The position numbers and the translations under genes are program-made. A model generated the notes under the pieces. That model saw only the letters and a program-made list of their open reading frames with translations. It was not told where the DNA came from and ran no database searches. This document shows, one piece after another, positions 34,226 to 50,719 of a DNA stretch of 54,001 bases. This DNA is from Elusimicrobiaceae bacterium (GTDB lineage Bacteria > Elusimicrobiota > Elusimicrobia > Elusimicrobiales > Elusimicrobiaceae), in NCBI GenBank assembly GCA_016281355.1, contig JAEEIL010000020.1, positions 1 through 54,001 on the forward strand, given 5' to 3'. Within the stretch, counting starts at the first letter, position 1, and each line of letters begins with the position of its first letter.

Positions 34226-34302
34226 AGAAAAGTAGCTGGTTATTGTATTTTTTAGATACTTAATTATGTGGATTATGGCTATAAAACGATACAATGAAAA
34301 AA

Positions 34303-34483: not shown

Positions 34484-34512
34484 TTGACTTTATTTTTTTG
34501 TTATGTTAAAAT
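34484..34512 (+). promoter_or_regulatory. SigA-type promoter of the Fic gene
   Basis: TTGACT (34484-34489) and TAAAAT (34507-34512), spacing 17, followed by AAAGGAG and the Fic start codon. Confidence 0.85.
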
Positions 34513-34537
34513 TATTCCGTAGCAAAAAGGAGATAAA

Positions 34538-35524
34538 ATGGATAAATATATTCCGCCTTATGATATTACCGAAGAAATGCTTTCACTTACTTCGGAAATA
34601 ATGGAATTGCTTGGCGAACTTAAAAATATAAACGACCTTGAAAAATTGCCGAGACTTAGGAGAGTGAATAGGATAAAATCTATACACTCGTCGCTTGCGA
34701 TAGAGAATAACGTTCTTTCGTTAAGTCAGGTAACGGATGTTTTAGAAGGTAAAAGAGTTTTAGGACCGGAAGATGATATTATCGCCGTTAAAAACGCTTT
34801 TGAAATGTATAAACAAATCGAAGAGTTAGATCCGTTCTCTATTAAAGACTTGGAAAAAGCGCACGGGATAATGATGAAGGGGCTGGTAGAAGAAGCAGGA
34901 AAGATTAGGACTTCGCCCGTCGGCGTTATAAATAATAAAGGGCAAGTTATTCACGTCGCCCCGCAAGCGTCTATGGTAAACGGTCTGTTAACGCAGTTAT
35001 TTTCTTGGCTCAAAAACAGCAATGCTCAAATGCTTATTAAATCGAGCGTGTTCCACTATGAATTCGAGTTTATTCATCCTTTCTGCGACGGCAACGGCAG
35101 AATGGGAAGACTTTGGCAAACCGTACTGCTTGCGAGTTGGAAACCTATTTTTGAGTGGATACCGATAGAAAGCATAATTAAAGATAATCAGGACGAGTAC
35201 TATAAGGCGATAACGTTATCTACTTCGGAAGGAAAGTCAAATTGTTTTATCGTCTTTATGCTTAAAACCATAAAAGCGTCTTTACAGGATATTATAAAGG
35301 ATTCCAGAAATCATTATAACCATATAAACAATCAGATAACCGCGCTTATGGCGGTTATAGAAAGTTATCCTATGTCGCTTACGGAACTTATGGAAAAAGT
35401 CGGATTAAAGGACAGAGATACTTTCCGTAAAAATTATATACTACCTGCTATCGAAGCAGGTTTAATCGGTATGACCGAACCAGACAAACCGAGAAGTAAA
35501 AATCAAAAATATTTTAAGATTTAG
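34538..35524 (+). CDS. Fic-family protein AMPylase with winged-helix C-terminus
   Basis: 328 residues. The active-site motif HPFCDGNGRMGR spans 180-191 (H180 catalytic). An N-terminal inhibitory helix motif S52-LAI-E56-N57 fits the (S/T)xxxE(G/N) rule of class II Fic proteins, so the enzyme should be self-inhibited until triggered. Residues about 265-328 form a winged-helix domain (MSLTELMEKVGLKDRDTFRKNYI). Fic enzymes transfer AMP to target hydroxyls. It has its own promoter and AAGGAG site and lies alone at the left end of element B. Confidence 0.9.
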   Translation: MDKYIPPYDITEEMLSLTSEIMELLGELKNINDLEKLPRLRRVNRIKSIHSSLAIENNVLSLSQVTDVLEGKRVLGPEDDIIAVKNAFEMYKQIEELDPFSIKDLEKAHGIMMKGLVEEAGKIRTSPVGVINNKGQVIHVAPQASMVNGLLTQLFSWLKNSNAQMLIKSSVFHYEFEFIHPFCDGNGRMGRLWQTVLLASWKPIFEWIPIESIIKDNQDEYYKAITLSTSEGKSNCFIVFMLKTIKASLQDIIKDSRNHYNHINNQITALMAVIESYPMSLTELMEKVGLKDRDTFRKNYILPAIEAGLIGMTEPDKPRSKNQKYFKI

Positions 35525-35600
35525 GAAAACAGGATTAACCGTGTTATGGTGGTAAAGTGAACAGTGAAGTTTTTTCAGAAGACTTTTTAGGAGAAAATAA

Positions 35601-36221
35601 ATGTTTGATTATGTATACGATAAGCAGGAGTTAAAGGAATTAAAAAGCGCCTGCGAAACAATTATCAAAAATGTCCAGCAGAGTTGGCTCAAAGATTACT
35701 TTACTTTTCAATTTATTTTAATCGGAAGCGGAAGTAATAACCTTATCACCCAAAACGGAGAAAATGGTGAGTTCGATTTGGACTATAATTTTATTTTGCA
35801 AAAAGACAGGCAAGGACTTATAAACAACCCGAAACAAATAAAAGAATTGTTTATTAAAGCGTTCAATGAAACCAATCCCGATTTGGGGTTTAAACCTGCG
35901 GAAAATTCTACTTCGGTGATTACGTCGAAGTTGATTTATGGAAATCGCTTACATTTTTCTTTCGATGTTGCCATTATGTGCGAAGGAAATAACGGAAATT
36001 ATTTGAAAATTGTTCACAATAACACAACACAACAATACTATTGGAACGAAGTGCGTCACTCGCGCAATTATCAAACTAAAATAAAGGCAATAAAGGATGC
36101 TGGGAAATGGAATGAATTGCGTGAAAGGTATCTTGAATTGAAGAATTATTATTTATCAAGACAAGAAGATATTGCATCGTTTTCGATATTAATACAAGCG
36201 ATAAACGAAATTTGCAAATAG
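35601..36221 (+). CDS. Nucleotidyltransferase-fold protein (NTase of an NTase/HEPN pair)
   Basis: 206 residues. GSGSNNLITQNGENGEFDLDYNF gives the NTase pattern GS...DxD (D-L-D), and FSFDVAIM supplies the third acidic residue. The size and context fit MNT-like antitoxins that AMPylate HEPN toxins, but the larger loop between GS and DxD also resembles OAS/CD-NTase-type enzymes. The partner HEPN gene starts 7 bases after its stop. AGGAG precedes the start. Confidence 0.7.
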   Translation: MFDYVYDKQELKELKSACETIIKNVQQSWLKDYFTFQFILIGSGSNNLITQNGENGEFDLDYNFILQKDRQGLINNPKQIKELFIKAFNETNPDLGFKPAENSTSVITSKLIYGNRLHFSFDVAIMCEGNNGNYLKIVHNNTTQQYYWNEVRHSRNYQTKIKAIKDAGKWNELRERYLELKNYYLSRQEDIASFSILIQAINEICK

Positions 36222-36228
36222 ACCTATT

Positions 36229-36918
36229 ATGACATACGAAAAGTTTTGGAACAAGATAAAAATAACCGAAACAGAGAAAGAAAAGTCGATTTATTATCTT
36301 CGATACCGTGGTGTTGACGAACATGATCATGTTCGTCAACATTTGGAAAGCCTATCTGGTGAAAAAGTCTCTTATGCCGAAATTGCAACCGCTTTTCGAT
36401 ATGATAAACGGATACGACGTGTTCTATATAAATATATCGGGTTGTTGGAAGAAAGCATTCGGGCTTATATCTCGAATAAATATAGCGATAGAATTAATCA
36501 TATAAAGTGTTCTGCTCCAATGAAAACCAATCTTAACAAGTTCGGCACACTCTCGACGGCTTTATCAGAGTTGACGTTTTATCAATTAATAACACAAGTA
36601 CTAATGCTTTCTGAAACGGATAAAAAAGAAGTATTCGTTAATTATATAAAACCAAATGATTTATATGCAGTTGTCGCATTGAGAAACGAAGTGAGTCATA
36701 ATCGCTTTTTGTTGGATAACAAGAATTTGAAGAAATGTAGTGTCGGCGACGGAAATGGCTCTTTGTGGACGAATATCATAAATCTAAAAAACTGTTTACC
36801 AGAGCCATTCAGGATGCAATTCGCAATAGATATAAACGATTGCGCAAAAGAAGGTAGAATAGATTATTTAAATCAAACTCAATGGGTATTGATAGATGGG
36901 TTAATCGTAAAAATTTAA
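36229..36918 (+). CDS. Abi-like HEPN RNase protein
   Basis: 229 residues, helical. The N-terminal part matches Abi_2 (AbiD/F)-type proteins (YLRYRGVDEHDHVRQHLES, FRYDKRIRRVLYKYIGLLEESIRAYI) and VVALRNEVSHNRFLL holds the HEPN RX4H signature (R-N-E-V-S-H). Likely an abortive-infection RNase or toxin held by the NTase just upstream. An overlapping frame at 36308 is a shadow. Confidence 0.75.
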   Translation: MTYEKFWNKIKITETEKEKSIYYLRYRGVDEHDHVRQHLESLSGEKVSYAEIATAFRYDKRIRRVLYKYIGLLEESIRAYISNKYSDRINHIKCSAPMKTNLNKFGTLSTALSELTFYQLITQVLMLSETDKKEVFVNYIKPNDLYAVVALRNEVSHNRFLLDNKNLKKCSVGDGNGSLWTNIINLKNCLPEPFRMQFAIDINDCAKEGRIDYLNQTQWVLIDGLIVKI

Positions 36919-37024
36919 CGAAGTTTTATAGTATCTTTTTTTGAGAAAGCAAGAAATAAAAATTTTTAAATATGACTGATATTATCATATTTAGTATTTT
37001 ATAATAGAATGCGGGAGAAGTATT

Positions 37025-40000
37025 ATGGCATCAATTATAGATAATAGAAACAAAACGATGTTGGAATCGTTAAAAAACACGTTAAAGCAAGCCGAAAGCG
37101 TAGATATATTAACGGCGTTCTTTTACTTTTCAGGCTTCAACGCTCTTGCGGAAGAATTAAGAGATAAAAAAATACGTATTTTAGTTGGTTGCACTATTGA
37201 TCCAAACGCAATAAGCGAACTCTGTAATGCGGTAAAAAATAATCCAGACGAAGAATTGAGTTCTTATTCTGTTCGTGGCTATAACAATTTAAACAATTCT
37301 CAAAAGAAAAACAACTATATCAACAGTTTTATAGATTTATTTAATAAATCTTCTTTGGCGGACGAGTTTGATTCGACTGAAAATCAAGCGATTTTCAAGA
37401 TGTTTTTGGAAAAAATCAAAAACGGGACATTGGAAATACGTTTAACTGCGAGACAGGATCATAGCAAATTTTATGTAATTACCAACAAATATGAATATTC
37501 TTGCTTCGGCGACCAAAAAGGCGTGGTATTTATGGGCTCGTCGAATTTTACATATAACGGACTACTTGGTCAAGGCGAGATGAATGAGCGTTTTAGCGAC
37601 AACGTAAAATACGACGAATATGAAGATAAATTTGAAAGTTTATGGAACGACAGCAAAGCAATAGATATATGCGTAAAAGATGGCAATAAAGATTTTGAAA
37701 CCGAGTTAAAAAAGAAGCTTTGGATTTTTGCAAAGCCTTCGCCATATCATATTTACGCACGTATATTATATGAATTGTATAATTCTATCGACCAAAACAG
37801 CGTTACTACTCCGTCGGAAATAACGAACGGGAAATTTGCTAATTTCAAATATCAATTAGACGCTATTAAATACGGTGTTGATTGTATAAATAAAAACAAC
37901 GGCGTAATTATTGCCGACGTTGTTGGTCTTGGTAAATCAATTATAGCGTCGGCGATTGCGTATAATCTTGATATACATAAAACGGTAGTTATTGCGCCGC
38001 CGCACCTTGTTGAGCAATGGGAAGATTATCAGCAAGATTTCGGACTTCGGGGTGTAAAAGTTTGTAGTAGCGGAAGAATCGAAGATTTATACAATGACTA
38101 TGCCGATGATCCCGATCCTATTTTGTATGTTATTGATGAGGCGCACCGATATAGAAACGAATTAAGTGAAAGTTATCAGTGGCTGCACCAACTGACGCGG
38201 TCTAATGCGGAAAATAAAGTTATTTTGCTTACGGCAACTCCATATAATAACCGCCCGCAAGACTTATTTGCGCTTGTAAAATTATTCCAGACTCCGAGTA
38301 GATCCACCATAAATTCTGTGGATAATTTAAGCGCGCGTTTTCACGAATTGATAACGAGATACAACAAACTCGAAAAAGAAGGTAAAAGAAACTTTACCGA
38401 AGAAATCAAAACCGAACTTGACAAGTTGAGCGGCGAGTTAAGAGTGCTGATTGATCCCGTAATTATTCGTCGTAGTCGTCTTGATTTGCAGGAAATAAAA
38501 GAATACGCCGAAGATTTAAGATTGCAAAATATTCACTTTCCGGAAGTTGTCGGTCCGAATTTAATAGAATACGATTTAGGCGGAATACGAGAATTATATC
38601 TTGATACACTTGAAAAATTAAGTAATCAATTTATTTGCGCCCGTTATAATCCTTCGGCGTATTTAATTGATCCGGAAGGATTTAATGAAAAATACGGCGA
38701 GTTGTTCAATGAAATTAACATCCAGCAATTTCAAGGCAACTTGGCGCAGTTTATAAAGAGATTGCTCGTTATGCGTTTTGAAAGTTCAAAAGCGGCTTTC
38801 AAGTCAACGCTTAACAGTTTGCTAACTTCTTACGAAAATATTAAAAAATGGTGGGATAAGGGTTACGTTCCGATTAAGAAAAGCGGATATTTGCCCGATC
38901 CCAACGGAGAAGAAATACAGGAAACTTTCGACGCAATCAATAATATAGCGGACGAGCCTATCGACGTTGATAAAATTAAGAAAAAAGCTATTCCTTTTGC
39001 AAAAAATCTGTTTAAGGAAGAATTTATCGTTGCCGTGGAGAACGATGTAAAATTACTTAGCGGAATTTATCATAATTGGTTTACGTCTGATAGCGTGGGA
39101 GAAGATCCGAAATACAATGAAATAAGCAAGCAGATTAAAAACAATCTTTCCGACAATTCTGCCCGTAAAATAGTTGTTTTCTCATCTTTCGCCGATACTG
39201 CCGAATATGTTAAAGCACGGCTCGAAGAAGACGGTTTCCGTGCATTATTATATACGGGTAAAGCGTCCAGCATTGACCGCAACGTCGTTAAAGCCAATTT
39301 TGACGCATCGTATAAGGCGGCGGAGCAATTAAATGATTACGATATTATCGTCGCGACCGATGCGTTGAGCGAAGGTTTTAACTTAAACCGTGCTGGAATT
39401 ATTATAAACTACGATATTCCGTATAACCCGACGAGAGTTGTTCAAAGAATAGGTCGTATCAACCGTATCAATAAAAAGATGTTTGATAAAATTTATATCT
39501 ATAACTTTTTCCCGACCGATATCGGCGAACAAAATACACTTATTAAGGGCATTTCCACTTTAAAAATGTTCCTTATCAATAATATCGTCGGTAGCGATAC
39601 GAAAACGCTTACGCCGGACGAAACGTTGCAAAGTTATTTCAAAAAACAATATGATGACGCTAACGCCGAGAACAGCGAAAAGAGTTGGGACGTTGATTTC
39701 CGCAATGATTATAATGCAATAAAGTATAACGTCAGATTTATTGACGAAACGTTAAAAATCCCCGAAAGGGCAAGAATTGTTCGCAAAGATAAATCCGTTC
39801 CTTGCGCCATCTCGTTTGCAAAGCGTGGAAATAATACGTTGTTTGCATTGGCAAGCCCGTATAAAGATAAAGCGGAAATAGTTCCGCCCGAAAAAGTTTT
39901 GACGTTATTCAAAGCCGATCCGGAAGAAAAAAGTTTTGATTACGACGAAGCGTTAGATAAAAAGTTTGCTATTTTGCGTGACGAAATTCGTAAACCGTAT

Positions 40001-40318
40001 CCCAAAATCAAACTCGATAAACGTAAGGGCGAGGCAATCGATAATCTTGAAAAACTTTCAGTTGCTTGTCCCGCGGAAAAGGATTATATAGCGGACTTAC
40101 TTGACGTGATCAAAACTTATGACGATTTAAGTGACGGCGAATTAAAATATCTTGCGAAAATCGTCGTAAAGAAGAGCGGCGCAGATGAAACCGTTAAAGA
40201 ATTAAAAGAAAAAATACCCGTCAATTACATTATCCAGATAAAACGAAAAGTGGAAAGCATTGACGCACAGACCGAAATCATTATGTTCACGGAGGACTTG
40301 AGAAGTGATAACGCTTGA
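37025..40318 (+). CDS. PLD nuclease-SNF2 helicase fusion
   Basis: 1097 residues. A phospholipase-D-type nuclease domain (about 1-230) with H146/K148 (HSKFYVI) and GSSNF (171-175); then SNF2 helicase: motif I VVGLGKS (G301, K304), motif II DEAH (D371), LTATPYNNRP, and helicase C motifs VFSSF, VATDALSEGFN and RIGRINRINK (near 810). The architecture suggests an ATP-driven DNA translocase with a metal-independent nuclease, as in restriction-type systems including DISARM-related sets. It overlaps the methyltransferase gene by 14 bases, so the two are co-translated. The ribosome binding site is GGGAGAAG. Confidence 0.85.
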   Translation: MASIIDNRNKTMLESLKNTLKQAESVDILTAFFYFSGFNALAEELRDKKIRILVGCTIDPNAISELCNAVKNNPDEELSSYSVRGYNNLNNSQKKNNYINSFIDLFNKSSLADEFDSTENQAIFKMFLEKIKNGTLEIRLTARQDHSKFYVITNKYEYSCFGDQKGVVFMGSSNFTYNGLLGQGEMNERFSDNVKYDEYEDKFESLWNDSKAIDICVKDGNKDFETELKKKLWIFAKPSPYHIYARILYELYNSIDQNSVTTPSEITNGKFANFKYQLDAIKYGVDCINKNNGVIIADVVGLGKSIIASAIAYNLDIHKTVVIAPPHLVEQWEDYQQDFGLRGVKVCSSGRIEDLYNDYADDPDPILYVIDEAHRYRNELSESYQWLHQLTRSNAENKVILLTATPYNNRPQDLFALVKLFQTPSRSTINSVDNLSARFHELITRYNKLEKEGKRNFTEEIKTELDKLSGELRVLIDPVIIRRSRLDLQEIKEYAEDLRLQNIHFPEVVGPNLIEYDLGGIRELYLDTLEKLSNQFICARYNPSAYLIDPEGFNEKYGELFNEINIQQFQGNLAQFIKRLLVMRFESSKAAFKSTLNSLLTSYENIKKWWDKGYVPIKKSGYLPDPNGEEIQETFDAINNIADEPIDVDKIKKKAIPFAKNLFKEEFIVAVENDVKLLSGIYHNWFTSDSVGEDPKYNEISKQIKNNLSDNSARKIVVFSSFADTAEYVKARLEEDGFRALLYTGKASSIDRNVVKANFDASYKAAEQLNDYDIIVATDALSEGFNLNRAGIIINYDIPYNPTRVVQRIGRINRINKKMFDKIYIYNFFPTDIGEQNTLIKGISTLKMFLINNIVGSDTKTLTPDETLQSYFKKQYDDANAENSEKSWDVDFRNDYNAIKYNVRFIDETLKIPERARIVRKDKSVPCAISFAKRGNNTLFALASPYKDKAEIVPPEKVLTLFKADPEEKSFDYDEALDKKFAILRDEIRKPYPKIKLDKRKGEAIDNLEKLSVACPAEKDYIADLLDVIKTYDDLSDGELKYLAKIVVKKSGADETVKELKEKIPVNYIIQIKRKVESIDAQTEIIMFTEDLRSDNA

Positions 40319-43300
40319 AGAGGCGAGAGAAATTCTTGCGAAAGAATACCATATAGATAACTTTACGTATCTTGTCAAAGATTTGTTGTTGCCGGACTTT
40401 GCCGGCGATAAGCACGCTGTCGAATTTAATAACGGCATATTCACTTCTGTTACGCAGTTGGGCGATTCTTCCGCTTGCGATTTAAGTGTTTTTGAAGTTG
40501 TTCTAGCGGACGGCGCGCAAAACCGCCGTGTGGCTATTACGCAGGAAATGTTCAAAATCCTTCGTGGACTTCGTGTAAATAACGCCATTGTCGCTTTTGC
40601 AAATGCGGATAAGCGCAATTATCGTATCTCTCTTTTAACGAGTAAATACGAGTATAACGGTGAGAAAATCGTAAAAGTTCTTTCTAATCCGCGTCGTTAT
40701 TCGTATAGCCTTGGGATAGGTACGAAAACCAAAACCGCTTATAAGTTTTTGATTGCAAAAGGCAAAGTCGCCGACCTTAACGAACTTATTAACCGTTTCT
40801 CAGTAGAAGTCGTAAACAAACAATTCTATGCCGAAATAGCCACGAGTTTTACCGAACTTGTCGGTGGCGAGCGCGATGGCAAAACTTACGAAAAACTGCT
40901 TAATCTCCACGGTACTGTCGATCATAACAAGTATGCCGAGTTCGGCGTGCGCCTTATCGGTCGAATAATGTTCTGTTGGTTTTTGCGTGAAAAACGTAGC
41001 GAAAACAATATTCCGCTTGTCCCCGACGATATGCTTGCACTCGACACGATAAACGGAAAAGCAAATTATTATCACGACGTTTTAGAACCGCTTTTCTTTG
41101 AACTTCTTAATACTCCGCATAAAAAACGTAAAGCATGTTTTAATGCCGATTATTACAAATTGATTCCTTATCTTAACGGCGGTCTGTTCAGCCCGCATAC
41201 TGACGACAGATACAAATTCGATCCCGTCAATAATTGCGGACAATACGGCGTTGTAACTATCCCTAACGAGTGGTTTATAAAACTTTACAATACGTTAGGT
41301 CAATACAACTTTACCGTGGATGAAAACACCGCTTACGATATAGAACTTTCTATCGATCCCGAAATGCTCGGTAGGATTTTTGAAAACTTGCTTGCGGAAA
41401 TCAACCCAGAAACGGGCGAAAATGCAAAGAAAAGCACGGGCAGTTTCTATACGCCCCGTGATATCGTCGATTATATGGTCGATAGCAGTCTTTGCGAATA
41501 CTTAAAAACCAAAACGGGCATTGACGAAATCAAATTGAACGCCCTTATCAGCTATTCAAAAGAAGATGACGATTTAGCCGTATTCGATGCAAATGAGAAG
41601 AAAAAACTTATCGACGCATTATACACCGTTACCGTTCTCGATCCCGCTTGCGGTTCGGGCGCGTTTCCTATCGGTATGCTACAAAAAGTAGTTTACGTTT
41701 TACAGGAACTCGATCCCGACGCAAATCTTTGGTTTGATAAAGCGACCGAAAACGTCGGCATACTTTTACGAAAGGAATTTGAAAAGAAGTTTAACGCCGG
41801 CTCGCTTAACTATATACGTAAATTAAGCGTTATCCAGAATTCTATCTTCGGTATCGATATTCAACCTATTGCAGTCGAAATTTCCCGCCTGCGCTGTTTC
41901 CTGTCGCTCATTATTGAAGAAAAAGTCGATGATACCGAAGAAAACCGCGGTATTAACCCGTTGCCCAACTTGGATTTTAAGTTTATTATCGCAAATTCGC
42001 TTATTACTTTGGACAACACAACTCAGTTATCTATATTTGAAAATCAAGATCACATCAAGAAATTGAAAGATATAAGAGAAGAATATTTCAATGCGGATAG
42101 CGAACGCCGCACGGAATTGAAACTCGAATTTTTGCAAGTTCAGCAAGATATGTTGTTGAATACTATCGCCAACTATCAAAAACAGGCGTCCGCGCGTTAT
42201 CAGCAACTTTCCGAATGGAAACCTTTTGAAAATAAGGCGACTTCTTGGTTTGATCCCGAATGGATGTTCGGCATCAAAGACGGTTTTGATATTGTTATCG
42301 GTAACCCACCATATATTTCAACAAAAGAAATATCGGCGAGTGATAAAAAATTATATGAAGAGAGTTTAGGGTTTACTGATGATACATATTATTTGTTTAC
42401 ATATAAAGGACTTCAACTCATTAAGCAGAATGGAAATTTAAACTATATTATTCCAAAGACATTTTGGACAACCCAAACAAAGCGAGGCATGAGAGATTTA
42501 TTATTGCAAAGGAAAGTCTCATATATTTTTGACACTGCAAATCCTTTTGAATCTGTAATGGTAGATACATGCATTATTCAAGTAATAAATCAGGAGTATG
42601 AACCTAACAACAATATTTTGTTTTTAGATGGCAGCAAAAACTTGTCTTGCCCGAACAAGTTTTTAATATCACAAGACAAATATATAAATATGCAAAATTC
42701 TGTAATATTTAAACCAACAGAATATAATTTGAAAATCGTTGATAAGCTTGGCAAAAAAGTTAAAGTTTTATATGATACTTGGTGGGATTCGATAAAAACC
42801 TCAAAAGATATCGAAAAAAACAAAGCAAAACTCGAAAAATATAGGGCATCCTTAAAGCCAGGAGATATTGCGTTGTTAGGATGTCTTACAGAGGGCGGGC
42901 AAGGTTTAGCGACTGCAAATAATGGTAAATATATAGCTGTTAGAAGAAAAACAAAATGGGCAAATAATATAGTTGTTTCAAGACCAATAAAGTTAAAAGA
43001 AGCAATTAAGAAATACCATATTGACCTGAATGATCTAAAACCATATAATTCACCCGATGAATTATTTGAAAATAGTAATGAAAAAGAAATTGATAGGATA
43101 TTTGATTATTTGAAGGGCAAATACGGTAGAGATATTTTTGGACAAGGGTATATTTATAGGATTATTGAAGACGAAGAATTGGCTGACATCTCTAGTTTAA
43201 CAACAGACGAAAAAGAAAATGGTATCGAAGAAAATAAAAAATACTATGTTCCTTATGATAAAGGCGATAAAGATGGTAATAGGTGGTATTTAGAAACTCC

Positions 43301-43775
43301 ATTTGCTATTGCTTGGTCTAAATCAAACGTCCGTTTTTTAAAGACCGATCCCAAAGCAAGATATCAGGGATATCAGTTCTTTTTTAACGAGGGTTTTTGT
43401 TGGAGCGATATTAATACTACATTCTTAAAATGCAGATTAAAAAATAAAAGCATAAACGACGTAAAGAGTATGAGTTTATATGGCCTTTCTAATATGGTTC
43501 CAGAAAAATATATTATTTCTTTAATCAATTCATCATTTATAAGCTTTTATGTTGATTCTTTTGTTAACAATACGCAAACGTTTCAAATAAATGATGCAAG
43601 ACAATTACCCATAGTTATACCAAGTGCAGAACAGTTATCAAAAATTCTGTCTATTTTTGAAGATGCTGTTTTGTTAAAAAAAGAAGAATTCGATAACGGT
43701 ATAACCAATACAGCTAAATTAAATATTTTGCAAGAAAAACTTGACAATTTAGTATTAAACATCTATGGAATATAG
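40305..43775 (+). CDS. Eco57I-type adenine methyltransferase with invertible C-terminal specificity region
   Basis: 1156 residues. The N-terminal 400 are unassigned; the N6-adenine MTase core has motif I DPACGSG (from D446) and motif IV NPPY (667-670). The C-terminal part is a target-recognition region. At codons 1009-1014 the gene carries the 18-bp sequence CGTCCGTTTTTTAAAGAC, repeated inverted at 44200-44217; inversion would replace residues 1015-1156 with about 147 alternative residues now encoded on the minus strand. The frame is preserved across the crossover. It probably protects self DNA against the PLD-helicase; the switch would change sequence specificity. Confidence 0.85.
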   Translation: MITLEEAREILAKEYHIDNFTYLVKDLLLPDFAGDKHAVEFNNGIFTSVTQLGDSSACDLSVFEVVLADGAQNRRVAITQEMFKILRGLRVNNAIVAFANADKRNYRISLLTSKYEYNGEKIVKVLSNPRRYSYSLGIGTKTKTAYKFLIAKGKVADLNELINRFSVEVVNKQFYAEIATSFTELVGGERDGKTYEKLLNLHGTVDHNKYAEFGVRLIGRIMFCWFLREKRSENNIPLVPDDMLALDTINGKANYYHDVLEPLFFELLNTPHKKRKACFNADYYKLIPYLNGGLFSPHTDDRYKFDPVNNCGQYGVVTIPNEWFIKLYNTLGQYNFTVDENTAYDIELSIDPEMLGRIFENLLAEINPETGENAKKSTGSFYTPRDIVDYMVDSSLCEYLKTKTGIDEIKLNALISYSKEDDDLAVFDANEKKKLIDALYTVTVLDPACGSGAFPIGMLQKVVYVLQELDPDANLWFDKATENVGILLRKEFEKKFNAGSLNYIRKLSVIQNSIFGIDIQPIAVEISRLRCFLSLIIEEKVDDTEENRGINPLPNLDFKFIIANSLITLDNTTQLSIFENQDHIKKLKDIREEYFNADSERRTELKLEFLQVQQDMLLNTIANYQKQASARYQQLSEWKPFENKATSWFDPEWMFGIKDGFDIVIGNPPYISTKEISASDKKLYEESLGFTDDTYYLFTYKGLQLIKQNGNLNYIIPKTFWTTQTKRGMRDLLLQRKVSYIFDTANPFESVMVDTCIIQVINQEYEPNNNILFLDGSKNLSCPNKFLISQDKYINMQNSVIFKPTEYNLKIVDKLGKKVKVLYDTWWDSIKTSKDIEKNKAKLEKYRASLKPGDIALLGCLTEGGQGLATANNGKYIAVRRKTKWANNIVVSRPIKLKEAIKKYHIDLNDLKPYNSPDELFENSNEKEIDRIFDYLKGKYGRDIFGQGYIYRIIEDEELADISSLTTDEKENGIEENKKYYVPYDKGDKDGNRWYLETPFAIAWSKSNVRFLKTDPKARYQGYQFFFNEGFCWSDINTTFLKCRLKNKSINDVKSMSLYGLSNMVPEKYIISLINSSFISFYVDSFVNNTQTFQINDARQLPIVIPSAEQLSKILSIFEDAVLLKKEEFDNGITNTAKLNILQEKLDNLVLNIYGI
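43328..43345 (+). repeat. Inversion site, left copy (inside the MTase gene)
   Basis: CGTCCGTTTTTTAAAGAC, exactly inverted at 44200-44217. It lies in frame as V-R-F-L-K-T in both cassettes and has GTC...GAC half-site symmetry, as expected for a serine-recombinase site. Confidence 0.8.
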
Positions 43776-44174
43776 GGTTTTTACCAATTCGTCCATTTTA
43801 TTTTCTAAATTTAAAATTATAGAATTATCTATTGAGGTTTGTTTTTCTGCATAAATATTATTAAATAGTTCACATATTTGTTCTAATTGTTCTTTTGTGG
43901 GAATTATAATAGGTATCTGCCTTAAATCGTTTATTTGAATATTTACGGTACAATTAATAAATTCTCGATAGTAATCAAATAATAGGTTTGAATTTAAGAG
44001 CGAAACAAAGAAAGAATTAGGCAATTTTGTATTTGATATCAAAGACATAGAGCCTACATCATTTACAGATGCTTGTTTCAATTTCACTTTTAACAATCTT
44101 GCATTTGGATTTAAAAGATTATTCCAACAAAAACCCTCTTTAAAATAAAACTGTGGATTTCTCATAACGGGCAT
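43755..44174 (-). CDS. Silent alternative 3' cassette of the MTase gene
   Basis: A 139-codon reading frame on the minus strand, homologous to the MTase C-terminus: FYFKEGFCWNN aligns with FFFNEGFCWSD, VNDVGSMSL with INDVKSMSL, IQINDLRQIPIIIP with FQINDARQLPIVIP, and ELVKTLYSI with NLVLNIYGI. The open frame actually continues upstream to 44217 without a ribosome binding site (the first ATG, at 44172, follows GGAGAAGGA by chance or design), reading VRFLKT across the inversion core. It overlaps the active gene's end by 21 bases tail to tail. As it stands it is a promoterless fragment; after inversion it would become the expressed MTase end. Confidence 0.8.
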   Translation of the reverse strand: MPVMRNPQFYFKEGFCWNNLLNPNARLLKVKLKQASVNDVGSMSLISNTKLPNSFFVSLLNSNLLFDYYREFINCTVNIQINDLRQIPIIIPTKEQLEQICELFNNIYAEKQTSIDNSIILNLENKMDELVKTLYSIDV

Positions 44175-44199
44175 TCCTTCTCCTTTTTTCCCAGAATTA

Positions 44200-44217
44200 G
44201 TCTTTAAAAAACGGACG
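44200..44217 (-). repeat. Inversion site, right copy
   Basis: The reverse complement of 43328-43345. The segment between the two sites is 854 bp. The recombinase gene begins 59 bases to its right. Confidence 0.8.
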
Positions 44218-44276
44218 CTAAAATTATCCTAGTATTCGCTTTGGCTGTATAATTAATACACAAAGGAGAATACAAA

Positions 44277-44876
44277 ATGATATATGGGTACATAAGAGTT
44301 AGTAGCGACAAACAAACAGTCGAAAATCAAAGGTATGAAATTAATACGTTCATTAAAAAGAATAATTTACGAATCGATGGGTGGATAGAAGAAACAATTA
44401 GTGGAACTAAAAATTATGATAAAAGGAAGTTAGGCTATCTGTTAAAAAGGGTGCAAAAAGATGATTTGATTATTTGCGCAGAACTTTCAAGACTTGGAAG
44501 AAATCTTTTTATGATAATGGAAATATTAAATATTTGCATGTCAAAAGAGTGTAAAGTTTGGACTATTAAAGACAATTATCGTTTGGGCGAGGATATTCAA
44601 AGTAAAGTGCTGGCGTTTGCTTTTGGGTTATCTGCAGAGATTGAGCGTAATCTAATAAGTCAAAGGACAAAAGAGGCTTTAGCTCGCTTAAAATTTGAAG
44701 GTAAGAAATTAGGTAGAAAAATAGGTTCAAAAAATAAAAATTTGAATGCGAAATGCGAGAACAACTATAACTTGATTATGAAATTACTAGATAAAGGTGT
44801 TTCTGTCCCTAAAATAGCTTATAAAATACACGTATCAAAGGGAACACTTTACAGATATTTATCATTAAAAAAATAA
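44277..44876 (+). CDS. Serine recombinase, DNA invertase type
   Basis: 199 residues of the Hin/Gin/resolvase class. The N-terminal catalytic domain begins YGYIRVSSDKQTVENQ, with S9 as the nucleophile by alignment to Hin S10, then ETISGTKNYDKRKLGYLL, DLIICAELSRLGRN and the E helix (AFGLSAEIERNLISQRTKEAL). The C-terminal helix-turn-helix is GVSVPKIAYKIHVSKGTLYRYL. Its small size is that of invertases and resolvases, not large integrases. A TATAAT box (44248-44253) and AAAGGAG precede it. It lies beside the invertible MTase cassette and is the natural enzyme for it. Confidence 0.9.
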   Translation: MIYGYIRVSSDKQTVENQRYEINTFIKKNNLRIDGWIEETISGTKNYDKRKLGYLLKRVQKDDLIICAELSRLGRNLFMIMEILNICMSKECKVWTIKDNYRLGEDIQSKVLAFAFGLSAEIERNLISQRTKEALARLKFEGKKLGRKIGSKNKNLNAKCENNYNLIMKLLDKGVSVPKIAYKIHVSKGTLYRYLSLKK

Positions 44877-44910
44877 AACACTTTAAAATAGCCATAACAA
44901 TGGACAAGTT

Positions 44911-45003
44911 ATGAAAACAATCACTTATACTTTTGCCGATGGACATAAACAAGACATAGAAGTATCGGACGAAATCGCTCTCGTCGAAGAATCTGTAAAA
45001 TAA
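44911..45003 (+). pseudogene. Remnant of a sigma-like/element regulator N-terminus, copy 1
   Basis: A 30-codon frame starting MKTITYTFADGHKQDIEVSDE, the characteristic N-terminus of a conserved sigma-like protein of Clostridia integrative elements, which then stops. A second, more damaged copy is at 48029. The pair flanks the TIR/DUF4365 cargo. Confidence 0.5.
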
Positions 45004-45018
45004 CAAAGGAGAAAAAAT

Positions 45019-45246
45019 ATGTATAATCCGAATTGGTACTATAACCCGCAATGCTTTAACCAACAAGCATACAATCAAATGCAACAAGAGATGCAAAAAT
45101 ATCAGCAATCGCAAAGCGAGGAAGTTGCAAAAGCGTTTCACGCATACAAAGACTTTCTTGATGCTTACGGCAAATTAGATCCTGCCCATCAGCAAGAATT
45201 GTTTTATTATTGTTTTGCTGATTTTGCCAGCCGTAATCATTGGTAA
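45019..45246 (+). CDS. Small Gln/Tyr-rich protein (75 aa)
   Basis: Unknown family. The N-terminus is rich in Asn, Tyr and Gln (MYNPNWYYNPQCFNQQAYNQ), followed by a helical stretch (EEVAKAFHAYKDFLDAYGKLD) and YYCFADFASRNHW. AAAGGAG lies 9 bases upstream, and it begins 15 bases after the remnant frame. Probably a real small element protein; the function is unknown. Confidence 0.6.
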   Translation: MYNPNWYYNPQCFNQQAYNQMQQEMQKYQQSQSEEVAKAFHAYKDFLDAYGKLDPAHQQELFYYCFADFASRNHW

Positions 45247-45295
45247 TTAGTTAAAATCGTCGTTGACGCCAAATTAATCGGTATTGGAGGTAACA

Positions 45296-46297
45296 ATGGA
45301 TTTTTTAAGCCCTGAACTTGAAGATTTATTAAAAAAGTGTATAGAGAAAGAAACTGATTTCCCAAAGGTGTTGCGAGAGATGTTAGAAAATGGTAATGCT
45401 TTTGAAAACTCTCGTTTGCGTGGGAAAATAAAAAGTTTAATAGATGAGGGTTATATTTCAAAACTCTCTTGGGGAGATAATCTACCATTGTTTGGTCGAA
45501 TAGAGCAAAAAGGATATGATTATTTTAAGTTAAAAGGCATTTACATACGTGCGAGATTAAGACAAGATCCATATTTTATTTTGTTGGATAAAGAATCGGA
45601 GGACGCATTAAAACGTCTTGTTAGTTTTTCTGAAGATTTTATTTCCCTTTCTGGCAAAACTTCAGAGGGTAAAATTTACGAAAATCTTGCACAGAAAGGC
45701 TACATTAAAATAGGTGCTAAAGGGTTAAGCTATATGCTTAACGGAGGCTTTGTTGGAGTCGTTTCAGTGACACAATCGGGGAAACAATATTTTATAGAAA
45801 AAGAAAATAGGATAGAAGAAATTATGTTTGCTCAAAGCGATAATACAATTGTTCAATTAAATAAGAGTGGATTATCTTACGACGTTTTTATTTCTCATGC
45901 AAATAAAGATAAAAATGATTACGTTGACGAATTAAAAGCTTCTTTGGACAAGCTAAAAATCAAGATTTTTTACGATAAAGATTCTTTGGAATGGGGTGAC
46001 AATTGGAAACAAAGAATTTTAAATGGTGTAAAAGAATCTGAATTTGCAATTATTGTTATCTCTGAAAATTTCTTTGATAGAGAATGGACGGAAAAAGAAC
46101 TCAACGAATTCTTGAATCGTCAAAATAGAAATGGGCAAAAGATCATTTTGCCGATTTTACATAATATCACGATAGAACAATTACAAGCCAAATATCCAGC
46201 GGTTGCAGATATTCAAGCAATTCATTCAAAGGATTATTCTTGTGATGAGATTGCTCTTCAATTTGCAGGGCAATTAATTAAAAGATTAAAGGCATAA
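45296..46297 (+). CDS. TIR-domain protein
   Basis: 333 residues. An N-terminal helical or winged-helix part (about 1-85) and a middle domain (about 95-180) precede a C-terminal TIR domain (about 193-333): YDVFISHANKDKNDYVDEL, IFYDKDSLEWGDNW, FAIIVISENFFDREWTEKEL, with the last Glu-rich turn carrying the catalytic Glu candidate. I use ATG 45296 (GGAGG 5-6 bases upstream). Followed by a DUF4365 gene and an unknown gene in the same direction; TIR probably acts as the NAD+-consuming effector. Confidence 0.85.
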   Translation: MDFLSPELEDLLKKCIEKETDFPKVLREMLENGNAFENSRLRGKIKSLIDEGYISKLSWGDNLPLFGRIEQKGYDYFKLKGIYIRARLRQDPYFILLDKESEDALKRLVSFSEDFISLSGKTSEGKIYENLAQKGYIKIGAKGLSYMLNGGFVGVVSVTQSGKQYFIEKENRIEEIMFAQSDNTIVQLNKSGLSYDVFISHANKDKNDYVDELKASLDKLKIKIFYDKDSLEWGDNWKQRILNGVKESEFAIIVISENFFDREWTEKELNEFLNRQNRNGQKIILPILHNITIEQLQAKYPAVADIQAIHSKDYSCDEIALQFAGQLIKRLKA

Positions 46298-46337
46298 AGA
46301 AATATTTTATGGTTAAACAATTAGAGGAAGCAAGAAT

Positions 46338-46850
46338 ATGAATGATAAACTTTTTGAAGAGGATTTAAGTATAAGTTATTTGCGTGCAATAGCTGCACAG
46401 GCAAAAGTTACCTTTCAATTAAACAATAGAGACGAAGATGGTAAAGATGTTGATTTAAAACAAATAGTCGAGACAAACGAGGGCCTTAAATTTAACGCGG
46501 AAATTTGTGTTCAACTTAAAGCAACTTGTTCAAAGAATTGTTATTCTGAAAATGACTCAGAGATAACATATAGCTTAAAAGCTAAAAATTATAACGACCT
46601 TTGTATGAAAGGGACAAACAGTATAATATTATGCTTGTTAATCTTGCCAGAAGATTGTAAAGATTGGGTAAAACAGAGTCCAGATGACCTTATATTAAAA
46701 AAATCAATGTATTGGTTTAGTCCTACTGATAAAACGCCGACTAATAATTCAGAAAGCGTTACAATTAAAATCCCCAAAACCCAATTGTTTACTGCTGAGG
46801 TGTTAAAGGGAATGATGCAAAGTGTTGCTAATAATGGAGGCATATTATGA
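46338..46850 (+). CDS. DUF4365 protein
   Basis: 170 residues with the DUF4365 pattern: EDLSISYLRAIAAQAKVTFQ, then DGKDVDL, EICVQLKATCS (Q-x-K) and a strand-rich remainder (NSIILCLLILPED). DUF4365 is a PD-(D/E)XK-like fold common in defence islands; here D of DGKDVD and QLK stand for the core. Its last codons overlap the next gene by 4 bases (ATGA), so they are co-translated. Confidence 0.8.
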   Translation: MNDKLFEEDLSISYLRAIAAQAKVTFQLNNRDEDGKDVDLKQIVETNEGLKFNAEICVQLKATCSKNCYSENDSEITYSLKAKNYNDLCMKGTNSIILCLLILPEDCKDWVKQSPDDLILKKSMYWFSPTDKTPTNNSESVTIKIPKTQLFTAEVLKGMMQSVANNGGIL

Positions 46851-47986
46851 TTTATTCTACAGATTTAACTGAAATTTCCGGTAAAATTAATCATTTGAAT
46901 ATTATAAAATACGTTTCAGATCTTCATTGGGTAAAATATACTGGTAAAGTTAAAGAGGGACTTTCAATTTACCAAAAAACTGTCAATGAACGTTTTTATC
47001 AAATAAATATTCCTTGTGATAAGTCATTTTACGATTATGCAATTGCGATGCGAAAGGTGGTAAGCATACTTGCTTTAACTGAAAAGAAAAGCGAAGAACA
47101 GATTATTTTAGAATTGCTTAATCCTTTATCTGATATTTTGCGGTTTAGAGATATTAGTGATAGCGTTGAAAACGGAAGCATTCTTTTAGAAGATGGCATC
47201 AGGTTGTTTGAAAATGCAAAAAGATTGGTTTTATCTGCTGCTCAAGATGTTGTGAATTATAAAAGAACTTATAAAGGGAGAATTTCAGATCAAGTACAAA
47301 AATTTGTAGATCAATGTAGGTACGGACAAACAGAAATTGGAAGCTATGTTGTTTCTATAGTATGTCCTTTTGCTAATTTATCTTCCGACGGAGAATATAA
47401 ACAGTTATCGATTTTTTCGGAAGAAACTGAAGCCGCAAACTCGATGACAAGGCAAACCACAAAAAAGATTTTTGATTCCATCTCTGAAATAAAAAATACA
47501 TTAGATGCCGGTGGTGATTTGTGTTCTTTAATAGAAGATGAGTCCAAAAAAATCAGCGTATCATTCGTCGAGTCATTAATGAATCTTAATTTGAGCAAGC
47601 CTAATGATTCAATTGAGATAAGTGCTAAATGGGCACCTACAATTTATGAAAACAAACCACAAGTAGATATGATTTCAATTTCGCATGACTATTATGATCC
47701 TATGAAGTGTTTAGTTGATAAATATAAAAAAGAAGAAGAACTAAACGATGTTGTCTTTGAAGGTAAAATATCGGAATTGGAAGCGAATACAAAAATTGAG
47801 GATAGAAAGCAAGGGCAGGCAACACTGGTTTATATTTCTGGGACATCCTTGAAGACAATTAAATTATCTATGGATAAAGAAAATTACGATATTGCAATAA
47901 TTGCACATAAGGAAGGTAAAACGATTAGGGCGGTCGGTGAAAAAGCAAAACGCCATTTAAAAAATGTTACTATTGAAATTTTATAA
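46847..47986 (+). CDS. Unknown protein (379 aa), partner of DUF4365
   Basis: No family recognised. The N-terminal half is helical with VVSILALTEKKSEEQIILELLNPLSDILRFR; the C-terminal third is beta-rich (GQATLVYISGTSLKTIKLSMDKENYDIAIIAHKEGKTIRAVGEKAK). No signal peptide. Tight overlap with DUF4365 indicates a complex; together with the TIR gene it may be a three-part defence unit. Confidence 0.65.
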   Translation: MIYSTDLTEISGKINHLNIIKYVSDLHWVKYTGKVKEGLSIYQKTVNERFYQINIPCDKSFYDYAIAMRKVVSILALTEKKSEEQIILELLNPLSDILRFRDISDSVENGSILLEDGIRLFENAKRLVLSAAQDVVNYKRTYKGRISDQVQKFVDQCRYGQTEIGSYVVSIVCPFANLSSDGEYKQLSIFSEETEAANSMTRQTTKKIFDSISEIKNTLDAGGDLCSLIEDESKKISVSFVESLMNLNLSKPNDSIEISAKWAPTIYENKPQVDMISISHDYYDPMKCLVDKYKKEEELNDVVFEGKISELEANTKIEDRKQGQATLVYISGTSLKTIKLSMDKENYDIAIIAHKEGKTIRAVGEKAKRHLKNVTIEIL

Positions 47987-48028
47987 ACGATGGGTTAAAT
48001 TTTTTTTAAATCAGATTAGAATAATTAT

Positions 48029-48142
48029 ATGAAAACTATCACCTACACTTTTGCCGATGAACATAATGCAAGGATTGAATGTTTAATTAATATAAATATA
48101 TTCGACAAAAGAAGTCAAAATAACCTGTCATATAGGTCTTGA
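48029..48142 (+). pseudogene. Remnant of the sigma-like N-terminus, copy 2
   Basis: Starts MKTITYTFADEHNARIECL, matching copy 1 at 44911 for ten residues and then diverging into unrelated codons before a stop at 48140-48142. Not a functional gene. Confidence 0.5.
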
Positions 48143-48166
48143 CAAGTAAAGAATGTATGGTATCAT
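48139..48166 (+). promoter_or_regulatory. Promoter of the structured RNA region
   Basis: TTGACA (48139-48144), spacing 16, TATCAT (48161-48166). No protein-coding frame follows for over 1 kb; the downstream sequence is rich in stable hairpins. Confidence 0.75.
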
Positions 48167-48172
48167 GAAAAT

Positions 48173-48650
48173 GTACGAGTAATATCGTATTTTTGTAGTG
48201 CCCTTTTAAAAAGGGATAGACGAAAATTATTTCGTCTTGTGTGGGAGCGCGTTTGCGCTTCTTCCCGTTGCAATCTTATTAAGAAAGTATTGTTAAGATT
48301 GCGCGTTCGGGAAACGATTACTGCGGGGCTTATTATGGTAATCGTAGGTTTGCCGGAGTTTTCCGTGTGCGATCATATTATATGATTTCAGCGGATACTT
48401 TTCCAGACTCAAACAAAATATTGCCTGCAAGATTTTGTTTGAAGAGGAACAGCAAGCATTACGGCAAAGCGGCGAAAGTAAAAAGACGCTTGCGAAGTTT
48501 GCTTTGCTGCGACGAGATGGGCTTTTTTGTGCTACAATTTTTAGGTATTACGCGTATAACAACTAAATATATTAACGGAATTAAAGAGTCCGTACGAGAA
48601 GGAATTGCGCCAAAAGGCGACGGTGAAAATCGTACGGACTTTTTGTTTTC
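48173..48650 (+). ncRNA. Candidate large structured non-coding RNA
   Basis: From the promoter to an apparent terminator (AGTCCGTACGA at 48587-48597 pairing with 48630-48640, then TTTTTGTTTT) lie about 480 bases with many stem-loops: CCCTTTTAAAAAGGG, AGACGAAA/TTTCGTCT, GCAATCTTA/TAAGATTGC, CGATTAC/GTAATCG, CAAACAAAAT/ATTTTGTTTG, GCAAAGC/GCTTTGC. The 99-codon frame at 48367-48666 crosses these stems and has no ribosome binding site. Size, ornateness and a place beside tRNA/integrase recall GOLLD- or ROOL-type phage RNAs, but I cannot confirm membership. Confidence 0.55.
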
Positions 48651-48720
48651 AAAGGAGTTTTTATGACATAGCACAGAACAAGCAAATAAAAGGATAGTTT
48701 TGGGAAAACAGTAAGAATTG

Positions 48721-48868
48721 AAAGCAGGTAAAGGGTTTTCCCAAAATCGAGCATTTTGGTGAAAACCGTATGGTTACAAACAGGAAACCTGTTTTAATTT
48801 AAAAACAACAGAATCGGGTTTCCCGATTGCTGCAAAACGAAAACGGTGCGTTTTCCTTTACCTGCTTT
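48721..48868 (+). ncRNA. Multibranch RNA domain closed by a 14-bp helix
   Basis: AAAGCAGGTAAAGG (48721-48734) is perfectly complementary to 48855-48868. Inside are four hairpins: GTTTTC-CAAAAT/ATTTTG-GAAAAC, AACAGG/CCTGTT, ATCGGG-TTT-CCCGAT and GAAAACG/CGTTTTC. It lies after the apparent terminator of the upstream RNA and may be a separate RNA or a continuation. Between 48869 and 48960 another long-range pair (AACACC/GGTGTT) is present; no gene is seen. Confidence 0.6.
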
Positions 48869-48966
48869 GTAAAATAGAGAAAAAACACCAAAAATTTAGC
48901 AACGGAAATATAAAAATATTTTTTAAATTTACTAATATTTCAGGTGTTGCCGTGGCTTAATATTAT

Positions 48967-48994
48967 AAGGAGAAAAATTATGACTTGGACGTAG
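48967..48994 (+). other. Four-codon mini-ORF with strong ribosome binding site
   Basis: AAGGAG (48967-48972), 7 bases, then ATG-ACT-TGG-ACG-TAG (M-T-W-T). A perfect start signal leading to an immediate stop suggests a leader peptide or a degraded gene start. Confidence 0.45.
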
Positions 48995-49003
48995 AAAAAA
49001 GAA

Positions 49004-49032
49004 TTGACAAGCAAGCAATAAGTACATATAAT
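49004..49032 (+). promoter_or_regulatory. Consensus promoter of the integrase gene
   Basis: TTGACA (49004-49009), spacing 17, TATAAT (49027-49032): a perfect SigA promoter. The 240-base leader that follows has no gene but has hairpins, including GTAAC/GTTAC and TTTGCGC/GCGCAAA, the latter (about 49236-49270) just before the integrase ribosome binding site. Confidence 0.85.
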
Positions 49033-49283
49033 CGTAGTAACAAAAAAGTTACCATTTGCTTGCAGGGTAAAAAAGACAACTGAATAGCAATCCGACTGTG
49101 GGATATTTACGGGCAGCAAGTTTAACACAAAAAAATACTCGCATCTTCCTGAACCTGTCGGAAATAAATTAAGGGAGAACAATTTGTAGAAAATGGCGAG
49201 AGAACATTGTAGTCGATCGGGGATAACGATTACTTTTGCGCAAAGAGTAAAAACGGATTTCCGCGCAAATAAAAATTTAAGGA

Positions 49284-50486
49284 GTGAAAAATTATAAGAG
49301 AAAAACAAGAACTACCAAGGCAGACAACGAAACTTTACTATTAGAGCAAATAAAACATTTAAATACTTTAATAGAAAAGTTAGAGTCAAAGCCGTCAACA
49401 GACGGGAATGGGAAAAAGGGACTGAAAGTTAAAATCGGCAAATTACAATTTACAAAGAAGGAGATACAAGAAATGCCGAGATTAAAAGATTTCAGTATAA
49501 GACAAAAAGAAAACGGAGTGTATGAGATAAGATTTCGAAGATACGGGTATAACGAAAGTTTTTCGAGTAAAGATTTCAGCGTAGCAAAACAAAAGGCGTT
49601 TACGTGGCTTGCCACTTTCGAACACGAGATACAGGCAAACGAGAATTTTGTTATATTGAAAAGAAGCGAAAAGGGCGATTTTTACGAAAGCAATACAGTA
49701 ATGTTCAAAGTTTTTGCCCACAATTACTTATATAATGTTAAGAAGTCTATGGTTGTGCAATACACATTTGATAACATAATTAACATTTATAAAAATCACG
49801 TTGCAAAAATTTACGATAAATACCCCGTATCGAAAATCAAGCCTGAAATGATTCAGAAACACTTAAACGTATTATCGAAAGAGAAAGGGAGAACGTGCGA
49901 AACGGTAAGGTCGATATTAAACGGAATTTTTGAATACGCCGTAGCAAGCGGCGTGATAGACAGAAATCCGATGAAAGCCGTATTTATCAAAAAGCACGAA
50001 CGCACAACGGGAACTGCGCTTTCAAAGGACGAAGAACGGAACTTCGTTGAAAGTATAAAGGGAACGAAGCACGAAGCGATTTTTCTTAAAATGCTTTATT
50101 CGGGCGTAAGACCTTGCGAGATAAACGATATAAAGGAAGATTTGGAGCATAACACGATAACGATTAAAAACGGAAAGTTAAAGAGTTATCAAAAGAATTT
50201 ATTCAGAATAATACCTATATTTCCTTTGTATAAACAGGTGGCTGAATGTGATTGCGGAAAACTCAATCCTAGAAAATTGTCGTACGAGTTCAGAGAATAT
50301 TGTCCGAACCATCAGTTAAAGGATTTAAGGCATACTTTCACCACAAGGGCAAGAGAGTGCGGAATAGATAACGAACTCGTGGCGGTATGGACGGGACACT
50401 CGCTTGGAAACATAACGAGTAGCGTATATACCCATTTTTCGATAGAGTTTCAGCAAGAACAGGCAAAAAAATTAGTATATATCTAA
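49284..50486 (+). CDS. Tyrosine integrase of element B
   Basis: 400 residues from GTG 49284, or 337 from ATG 49473, which has a better-spaced AAGGAG (49458-49463) and yields the usual start MPRLKDFSIRQ. The upstream 63 codons (coiled KTRTTKADNETLLLEQIKHL...) may be a true extension. An N-terminal arm-binding domain (YEIRFRRYGYNESF), an SAM-like core-binding domain, and a catalytic domain with SGVRPCEI (Arg), LKDLRHTFTTRA (HxxR), WTGHS (His) and SVYTHFS (Tyr) are visible. It reads toward the tRNA and should integrate at the tRNA-Gln 3' end. Confidence 0.9.
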   Translation: MKNYKRKTRTTKADNETLLLEQIKHLNTLIEKLESKPSTDGNGKKGLKVKIGKLQFTKKEIQEMPRLKDFSIRQKENGVYEIRFRRYGYNESFSSKDFSVAKQKAFTWLATFEHEIQANENFVILKRSEKGDFYESNTVMFKVFAHNYLYNVKKSMVVQYTFDNIINIYKNHVAKIYDKYPVSKIKPEMIQKHLNVLSKEKGRTCETVRSILNGIFEYAVASGVIDRNPMKAVFIKKHERTTGTALSKDEERNFVESIKGTKHEAIFLKMLYSGVRPCEINDIKEDLEHNTITIKNGKLKSYQKNLFRIIPIFPLYKQVAECDCGKLNPRKLSYEFREYCPNHQLKDLRHTFTTRARECGIDNELVAVWTGHSLGNITSSVYTHFSIEFQQEQAKKLVYI

Positions 50487-50505
50487 CAAAAAATTATGCG
50501 GTTAG

Positions 50506-50521
50506 TCCCCATTTAGTCCCC
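50506..50521. repeat. TCCCC pair, candidate integrase arm site (element B right)
   Basis: AGTCCCCATTTAGTCCCC, with the same 11-base period as the pairs at 546 and 34211, starts 18 bases after the integrase stop. Confidence 0.5.
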
Positions 50522-50582
50522 ACAAAGTCTGAAATGGGATAAAAATTCAACCGTAAAAGTGGTCAAACCACCTCTAAAACAA

Positions 50583-50618
50583 ACGGTAGATTGACTGTAA
50601 TGATAGTCAATCTACCGT
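50583..50618 (-). terminator. Terminator downstream of tRNA-Gln, supplied by element B
   Basis: A perfect 14-bp stem (ACGGTAGATTGACT/AGTCAATCTACCGT); on the minus strand it is followed by TTGTTTT. A smaller GGGC/GCCC hairpin lies between it and the tRNA. Confidence 0.8.
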
Positions 50619-50643
50619 ATAAAGTGGGCAAACGCCCAAAAAA

Positions 50644-50719
50644 TGGCAGGGGTAGCTGGATTCGAACCAACGAAGTGACGGAGTCAGAGTCCGTTGCCTT
50701 ACCGCTTGGCGATACCCCT
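50644..50719 (-). tRNA. tRNA-Gln(CTG)
   Basis: 76 bases with encoded CCA. Acceptor AGGGGTA/TACCCCT with discriminator G, D-arm GCC AAGCGGTAA GGC, anticodon stem ACGGA/TCCGT with loop CTCTGAC (anticodon CTG, reading CAG), T-arm GTTGG TTCGAAT CCAGC. The sequence closely follows the Bacillus tRNA-Gln pattern. Its 3' end (plus-strand 50644-50669) is the attachment core. Confidence 0.95.

Follow-up and report, generated by a model that had tools for sequence, protein, structure and literature searches.

Inversion within the gene that sets DNA-methyltransferase specificity is an established kind of phase variation. The master DNA invertase Mpi of Bacteroides fragilis flips many promoters, and Milman et al. 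in 2023 reportedly predicted gene-altering programmed inversions, including some in type II restriction-modification, probably of a generally similar kind to the one described here. In type I restriction-modification, hsdS inversion is established (PMC5903667; PMC11892184), for example in Streptococcus pneumoniae (PMC4948785), with inverted repeats in the specificity gene and a recombinase that swaps recognition modules. Phase variation of pglX is known in BREX (PMC11341690). Type-2 "BR" systems carry an HKD (PLD) nuclease fused to a SNF2 helicase and an N6-methyltransferase (MTase) together with DUF499 and DUF3780; the part of that report compared here makes no mention of inversion (PMC12839542).

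We examined a locus in the window (the whole stretch of DNA analyzed, a single 54,001-bp contig of a 1.5-Mb Elusimicrobiaceae genome from a gut bacterium) in which a PLD-SNF2 helicase gene and an MTase gene adjoin a silent cassette and an Mpi-family invertase. We consider it probable that this locus is a two-site phase-variable specificity inverton, capable of up to four enzyme forms, within a two-gene restriction-like system on an integrated defense island. It resembles invertible hsdS in its repeats and recombinase; in contrast, its recognition domain is part of the MTase, its recombinase is an Mpi-family serine invertase, and half of a target recognition domain (TRD) would be exchanged at two nested sites, a layout not met in the passages of the cited sources that were compared. 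With BREX PglX it shares an MTase fold with an integral TRD, but it lacks the BREX operon and its partner is the PLD-SNF2 helicase; PglZ, expected of a BREX system, gave only a sub-cut-off match in the genome (21.1 versus 25 bits), on another contig. With Bacteroides Mpi it shares the recombinase family (NF009949), the window invertase being local and altering coding sequence. The helicase-MTase combination resembles the effector portion of Type-2 BR systems, but DUF499 had 0 matches in the genome. As for DISARM, DrmD reached 160 bits against a cut-off of 610, and among the best PADLOC matches listed for nine proteins there was only a helicase-DrmA match of 75 bits and none to DrmB. The initial annotation suggested that the switch may be new. 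That suggestion stands for the variant in a PLD-helicase/MTase pair, for which no report of inversion was recognized in a search of mainly open-access literature; it does not stand for inversion of MTase specificity genes in general.

Inverted sites, cassettes, and invertase of the window

The MTase gene (40305..43775, plus strand) encodes a 1156-aa adenine-specific enzyme of PglX/type-IIG-like character. Pfam assigns Eco57I (105.9 bits) and N6_Mtase domains and no nuclease domain to the chain, although the best PADLOC model is REase_MTase_IIG (287 bits); Foldseek, used for overall fold only, returned PglX 8c45 as the best match. A tRNA-Gly call inside the gene (42582-42668) was regarded as spurious. 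The preceding gene, overlapping by 14 bp, encodes a PLD-SNF2 helicase (37025..40318, plus strand; Pfam PLDc_2, SNF2-rel_dom, and Helicase_C), the presumed nuclease/translocase partner, in whose translation an HSK...GSSN motif is visible.

The initial annotation had placed an 18-bp repeat in frame in the MTase gene, with an inverted copy downstream. Both copies of this site, S1 (CGTCCGTTTTTTAAAGAC), are exact: the left copy (43328..43345, plus strand) forms the VRFLKT codons of the MTase ORF, and the right copy (44200..44217, minus strand) lies in the silent cassette. No further copy occurs in the window even with up to three mismatches; in shuffled sequence 0.15 matches are expected, and two matches arose in 1 of 100 shuffles. 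The S1 inverted repeat is therefore confirmed, but the earlier description of a single site pair was incomplete, because a nested second pair, S2, had been overlooked. The 16-bp S2 core (GAGGGTTTTTGTTGGA) is exact at 43389..43404 (plus strand) and 44123..44138 (minus strand); the entire 1.5-Mb genome contains these two exact inverted copies, and a backwards control pattern returned 0. S2 starts 61 bp further in than S1 on the left arm and 79 bp further in on the right, encodes EGFCW in both cassettes, and is the core of a nested inverted repeat of 31 nt with a 90% match (43374-43404/44123-44153).

Comparison of the cassettes assigns the active S1-S2 segment (43346..43388, plus strand) to the DPKARYQG type and the silent one (44139..44199, minus strand) to the NSGKKGEGMPVMRNPQ type. 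The active post-S2 module (43389..43775, plus strand) belongs to class alpha (SDINTT) and, judging from the module alignment and the PglX profile, comprises the latter half of the recognition domain together with the C-terminal helices. Its silent counterpart (43755..44138, minus strand) belongs to class beta (NNLLNP) and is open to its own stop codon. Inversion at S1 in silico gave an uninterrupted protein of 1161 aa, the minus-strand frame being open through the repeat, in agreement with the silent homologous C-terminus annotated as continuous across the core. Such a flip would span 854 bp and exchange approximately the last 142 residues, both as originally given; inversion at S2 would exchange only the last 128 and retain the S1-S2 segment. 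Two cassettes combined with two usable sites would thus allow up to four full-length MTases.

The recombinase gene (44277..44876, plus strand) starts 59 bp from the right S1 copy, the distance already noted, and encodes a protein of 199 aa with Pfam Resolvase and HTH_7 domains. Its previous label, "Hin-type," was right about a serine recombinase and wrong about the family: the protein scores above the NCBIfam threshold of the Mpi family (NF009949; 319.6 versus 272 bits) and should be termed an Mpi-type serine invertase. The locus therefore combines inverted repeats, one of them in an expressed gene, with an in-frame silent homologous segment and an adjacent site-specific recombinase. The invertase is oriented opposite to all 19 of its closest relatives and lacks the last 17 residues, which in 19/19 relatives form a conserved C-tail (AYT.IR.P..WxRGIY) with several invariant residues; it could thus be slow or locked. 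On the minus strand of 44218-44276, a TAG precedes the GTCC of the right S1 copy by 12 nt. The invertase stop codon of the relatives is spaced identically, and the TAG may mark the former end of the invertase before it flipped. Recombination at sites around the gene was considered as the cause of this flip, but the inverted repeats listed include no flanking pair.

Three exact direct copies of a 26-bp tRNA-Gln 3' end (TGGCAGGGGTAGCTGGATTCGAACCA) occur at 466-491, 34132-34157, and 50644-50669, and a tyrosine integrase is encoded at 49284-50486. The switch lies inside the smaller of two tandem integrated islands, which measure 16.5 kb (34132-50644) and 33.7 kb (466-34132). Defense-like neighbors on the island are a Fic protein (34538), an Abi_2 protein (36229), and a TIR protein (45284), and a DUF4365 protein with its partner (46338-47986) matches PADLOC PDC-M02A/M02B. 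The genome also encodes a second PLD-helicase/MTase pair (L018, 6360-13108 on contig C32), which has neither cassette nor invertase; its MTase has a similar kind of body and an unrelated specificity half.

The exchanged segment and the recognition domain

When the profile of the C-terminal half was searched against the PDB, the only match was Salmonella PglX (8c45), with query residues 300-473 aligned to PglX 707-873 (whole-sequence E 8.5e-11). According to the PglX report, the TRD comprises residues 662-849, spacer helices follow at 850-960, and T802A/S838N shift specificity (PMC11341690). EGFCW aligns to EGITW of PglX (776-780, by hand count), which places T802 and S838 both after the aligned S2 position. 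A PADLOC PglX model was also matched by 27 of the 30 modules from the loci described below. AlphaFold models were dropped for domain placement given their low confidence in the TRD (mean pLDDT of 68 for the whole MTase, about 27 near residues 1001-1030, and 58 for the C-terminal half), and the TRD assignment accordingly rests on the sequence profile against 8c45. From this alignment, the TRD limits, and the specificity changes located after S2, a flip should replace the second TRD half and the helices behind it, and we infer that the target sequence would change with it.

Related loci and conservation of the sites

A genome-wide invertase scan yielded 80 loci with the closest invertases, beside which a common layout recurs: a PLD-SNF2 helicase, an MTase, two or three C-terminal cassettes, and an invertase. 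The supporting loci come mostly from metagenome-assembled genomes (MAGs). In 10 of the 80 (L028, L029, L031, L032, L035, L036, L041, L044, L045, and L046), a single contig holds the invertase, two or more cassettes, and MTase body sequence, of which L035 contributes only the end. The hosts of these ten are Treponema (L045), Bacillota (L044), and otherwise Bacteroidales or their relatives. In three more loci (from the genomes of L030, L033, and L039), the MTase is on a separate contig. Four of the 19 genomes searched via invertase loci had no MTase match (G096, G099, G103, and G107). Among 90 genomes of the same family as the window, 5 had an MTase match and 5 an invertase match (E 1e-20). In each of the 11 related loci retrieved with both genes, the helicase gene immediately precedes the MTase gene, and PLDc_2 was present in 8/8 of the helicases scanned from these, in L195 below the curated cut-off. 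The viral scan with the invertase returned 18 loci, none with cassettes; that with the MTase returned three loci with the helicase-MTase pair and no silent cassette or invertase match. The plasmid search gave only distant MTases, all below 60% identity.

Eight loci, including the window, have two cassettes, and in all of them both S2 sites encode EGFCW, one S2 site of L042 differing in its last base. Another eight have three cassettes (L029, L035, L040, L041, L046, and the loci of genomes G092, G095, and G100), although the first module of L040 is broken by stops and the third module of G092 and of G095 is cut off by a contig end. In 8/8 of these, the tandem arm consists of S1, the segment, a degenerate S2 (EGLCW), and a module, followed by a third module that begins at an intact S2 preceded by unrelated DNA. 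Two intact direct S2 repeats would invite deletion of a module, which offers a rationale for the degenerate copy; this tandem rule was derived from the same eight loci in which it is seen. The alignment comprised 30 modules open for at least 100 codons, 29 of them 122-135 aa long and one 141 aa; the interrupted first module of L040 and any module truncated at a contig end were left out. There are two types of S1-S2 segment (DPKARYQG and NSGKKGEGMP) and at least four classes of post-S2 module, and all eight combinations of the two types with four classes were found. Counting against the inverton reading, an NSGK segment is MTase-linked in most loci, and S1 is rarely in the alternative state.

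The sites are conserved as DNA beyond chance. In ten MTase C-terminal halves with 157 invariant residues that have degenerate codons, seven of them inside S1/S2, mean pairwise codon identity was 0.83 at the sites versus 0.48 for draws matched by degeneracy, and the observed value was reached in 0 of 100,000 draws. Of 51 loci whose downstream flank spans 1.5 kb or more, 22 have an inverted repeat of at least 15 nt with one arm in the first 120 nt past the invertase and the other farther on; among control stretches, 2 of 446 do. Next to other MTases, the repeats of related Mpi loci are GAGCGnTTTTGTTCAG-like and code for a different peptide (frame read by eye).

Several individual loci have further features. 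At L061, L062, L067, L076, L084, L087, L093, and L106, Mpi genes adjoin MTase cassettes with GAGCGATTnTGTnCAGnA-like sites, and in L061, L062, and L087 the contig ends within 20 bp of the invertase stop. In L044, an S2-like sequence on the opposite strand (6653-6668) overlaps the S1 beside the invertase. The decayed loci L037 and L038 are broken after 6690, directly past the GAG of S2, and one runs into the helicase gene; they are possible products of aberrant recombination.

Activity, competing explanations, and transfer of the specificity half

Where reads continue in more than one way, an assembly is expected to branch and break at a 16-bp repeat. S2 occupies the very beginning (base 1) of contigs G092:C70 and G095:C26, and S1 the very end (base 7224) of G103:C102; these three ends are as mixed orientations predict, although they could alternatively reflect mixed strains in a MAG. 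The G100 assembly breaks inside S2, its two contigs sharing a 55-base end (hand count). In the 80-locus set, a contig end falls no more than 200 bp from the invertase in 15 cases on its downstream side and in 2 on its upstream side (0.86 expected; Fisher p 0.0014). A matching beta module (88.9% over 99 bp) differs in position between G095, where it is linked to the MTase, and G100, where it stands third, the two loci being diverged relatives (78% over 1222 bp); the loci compared include no pair of orientations within one species. The window's own genome assembly displays neither both orientations nor contig breaks at the sites.

Recurrence of the layout in unrelated genomes, conservation of the sites at the DNA level, reassortment of modules across S2, the contig breaks, and the location of the swapped segment in the recognition domain together support the specificity-switching inversion that the initial annotation had proposed. 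An alternative that we judge unlikely is that the window holds a locked or decaying relic, its rearranged, tail-less invertase no longer working and its second cassette dead stock. The reversed orientation and shortened end of the invertase are consistent with such a fate, as is decay elsewhere in the family: G086, of the same genus, has two inverted cassettes and an invertase and no MTase body, G025 has an invertase with a fragment, and the G085 MTase retains S1 (with 1 mismatch) and S2 in a genome with no invertase at E 1e-20. The catalytic and HTH domains of the window invertase are nevertheless complete (Pfam) and its score is above the Mpi cut-off, the silent cassette is fully open with the S1 and S2 pairs intact, and tail-less Mpi relatives of about 200 aa also adjoin inverted MTase cassettes.

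It is considerably less probable still that the cassettes are exchanged by RecA-type recombination or gene conversion, with the invertase incidental. Such exchange evidently also happens, given that in L031, L035, and L041 the two arms carry identical S1-S2 segments (65-86 nt), but S1 and S2, at 16-18 bp, offer too little length for homologous exchange to be efficient, the conservation of the sites is at the DNA level, and cassette homology starts exactly at S1 next to the invertase or, in third cassettes, at S2. That the locus is instead an on/off switch has next to no credibility in our estimation: the sole point in its favor is that most known Mpi-type switches act on promoters, nothing in the data pointed that way, and it is contradicted by the full-length protein obtained from both orientations and by the narrow range of module lengths.

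Under specificity switching, two short in-frame sites would divide the TRD of the MTase. The Mpi-family invertase would recombine the inverted S1 copies and swap everything from VRFLKT on, and probably would also recombine S2 and swap everything from EGFCW on, exchanging the expressed second TRD half and the following helices for the silent version. Each of the four MTases would have its own target for methylation and for guiding the PLD-SNF2 helicase, such that several restriction and methylation identities would coexist in a clonal population. We infer that the invertase acts on both sites, that the helicase restricts, and that the window copy is active.

The specificity half and its switch seem to have been grafted onto MTases at the catalytic NPPY, which is at residue 667 of the window MTase. 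Four observations underlie this suggestion. From 666 to 1007, the window MTase is 51-84% identical per bin to five phylogenetically distant invertible MTases, compared with 17-50% in bins 1 to 640; against the non-invertible L126, L128, and L018, identity is 14-43% in the 666-1007 bins and 27-66% in bins before 641, and another comparison gave similar results. GC content drops at the NPPY region, from 0.411 (40305-42299) to 0.297 (42300-43775). Identity between L029 and L055 is 91-92% as far as NPPY and falls to 27%, 17%, and 21% beyond. In other Mpi loci, among them L059, L080, and L094, an inverted repeat spans the NPPY codons and the silent MTase cassettes begin at NPPY, so that a flip there would swap the whole specificity half. 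We put at roughly even odds a broader proposal, that these loci are combinatorial half-TRD shufflons in which one local Mpi-type invertase, acting on two nested DNA-conserved sites, mixes S1-S2 segments with post-S2 modules (four forms from two cassettes, and more in three-cassette loci with a degenerate S2 in the tandem arm), and in which specificity half, cassettes, and invertase move as a unit between MTases by exchange at NPPY, across Elusimicrobiota, Bacteroidota, Spirochaetota, and Bacillota.

If the specificity-switching reading is true, a helicase-MTase defense system would change its self/non-self code by a local flip and would provide several restriction identities against phages within a clonal population. 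Related switches with similar parts occur in several bacterial groups, and the number and placement of their sites lead to testable predictions on recombinase site choice. The natural shuffling would also pinpoint the positions at which modules of a PglX-like recognition domain can be exchanged, information of use for reading and engineering specificity.
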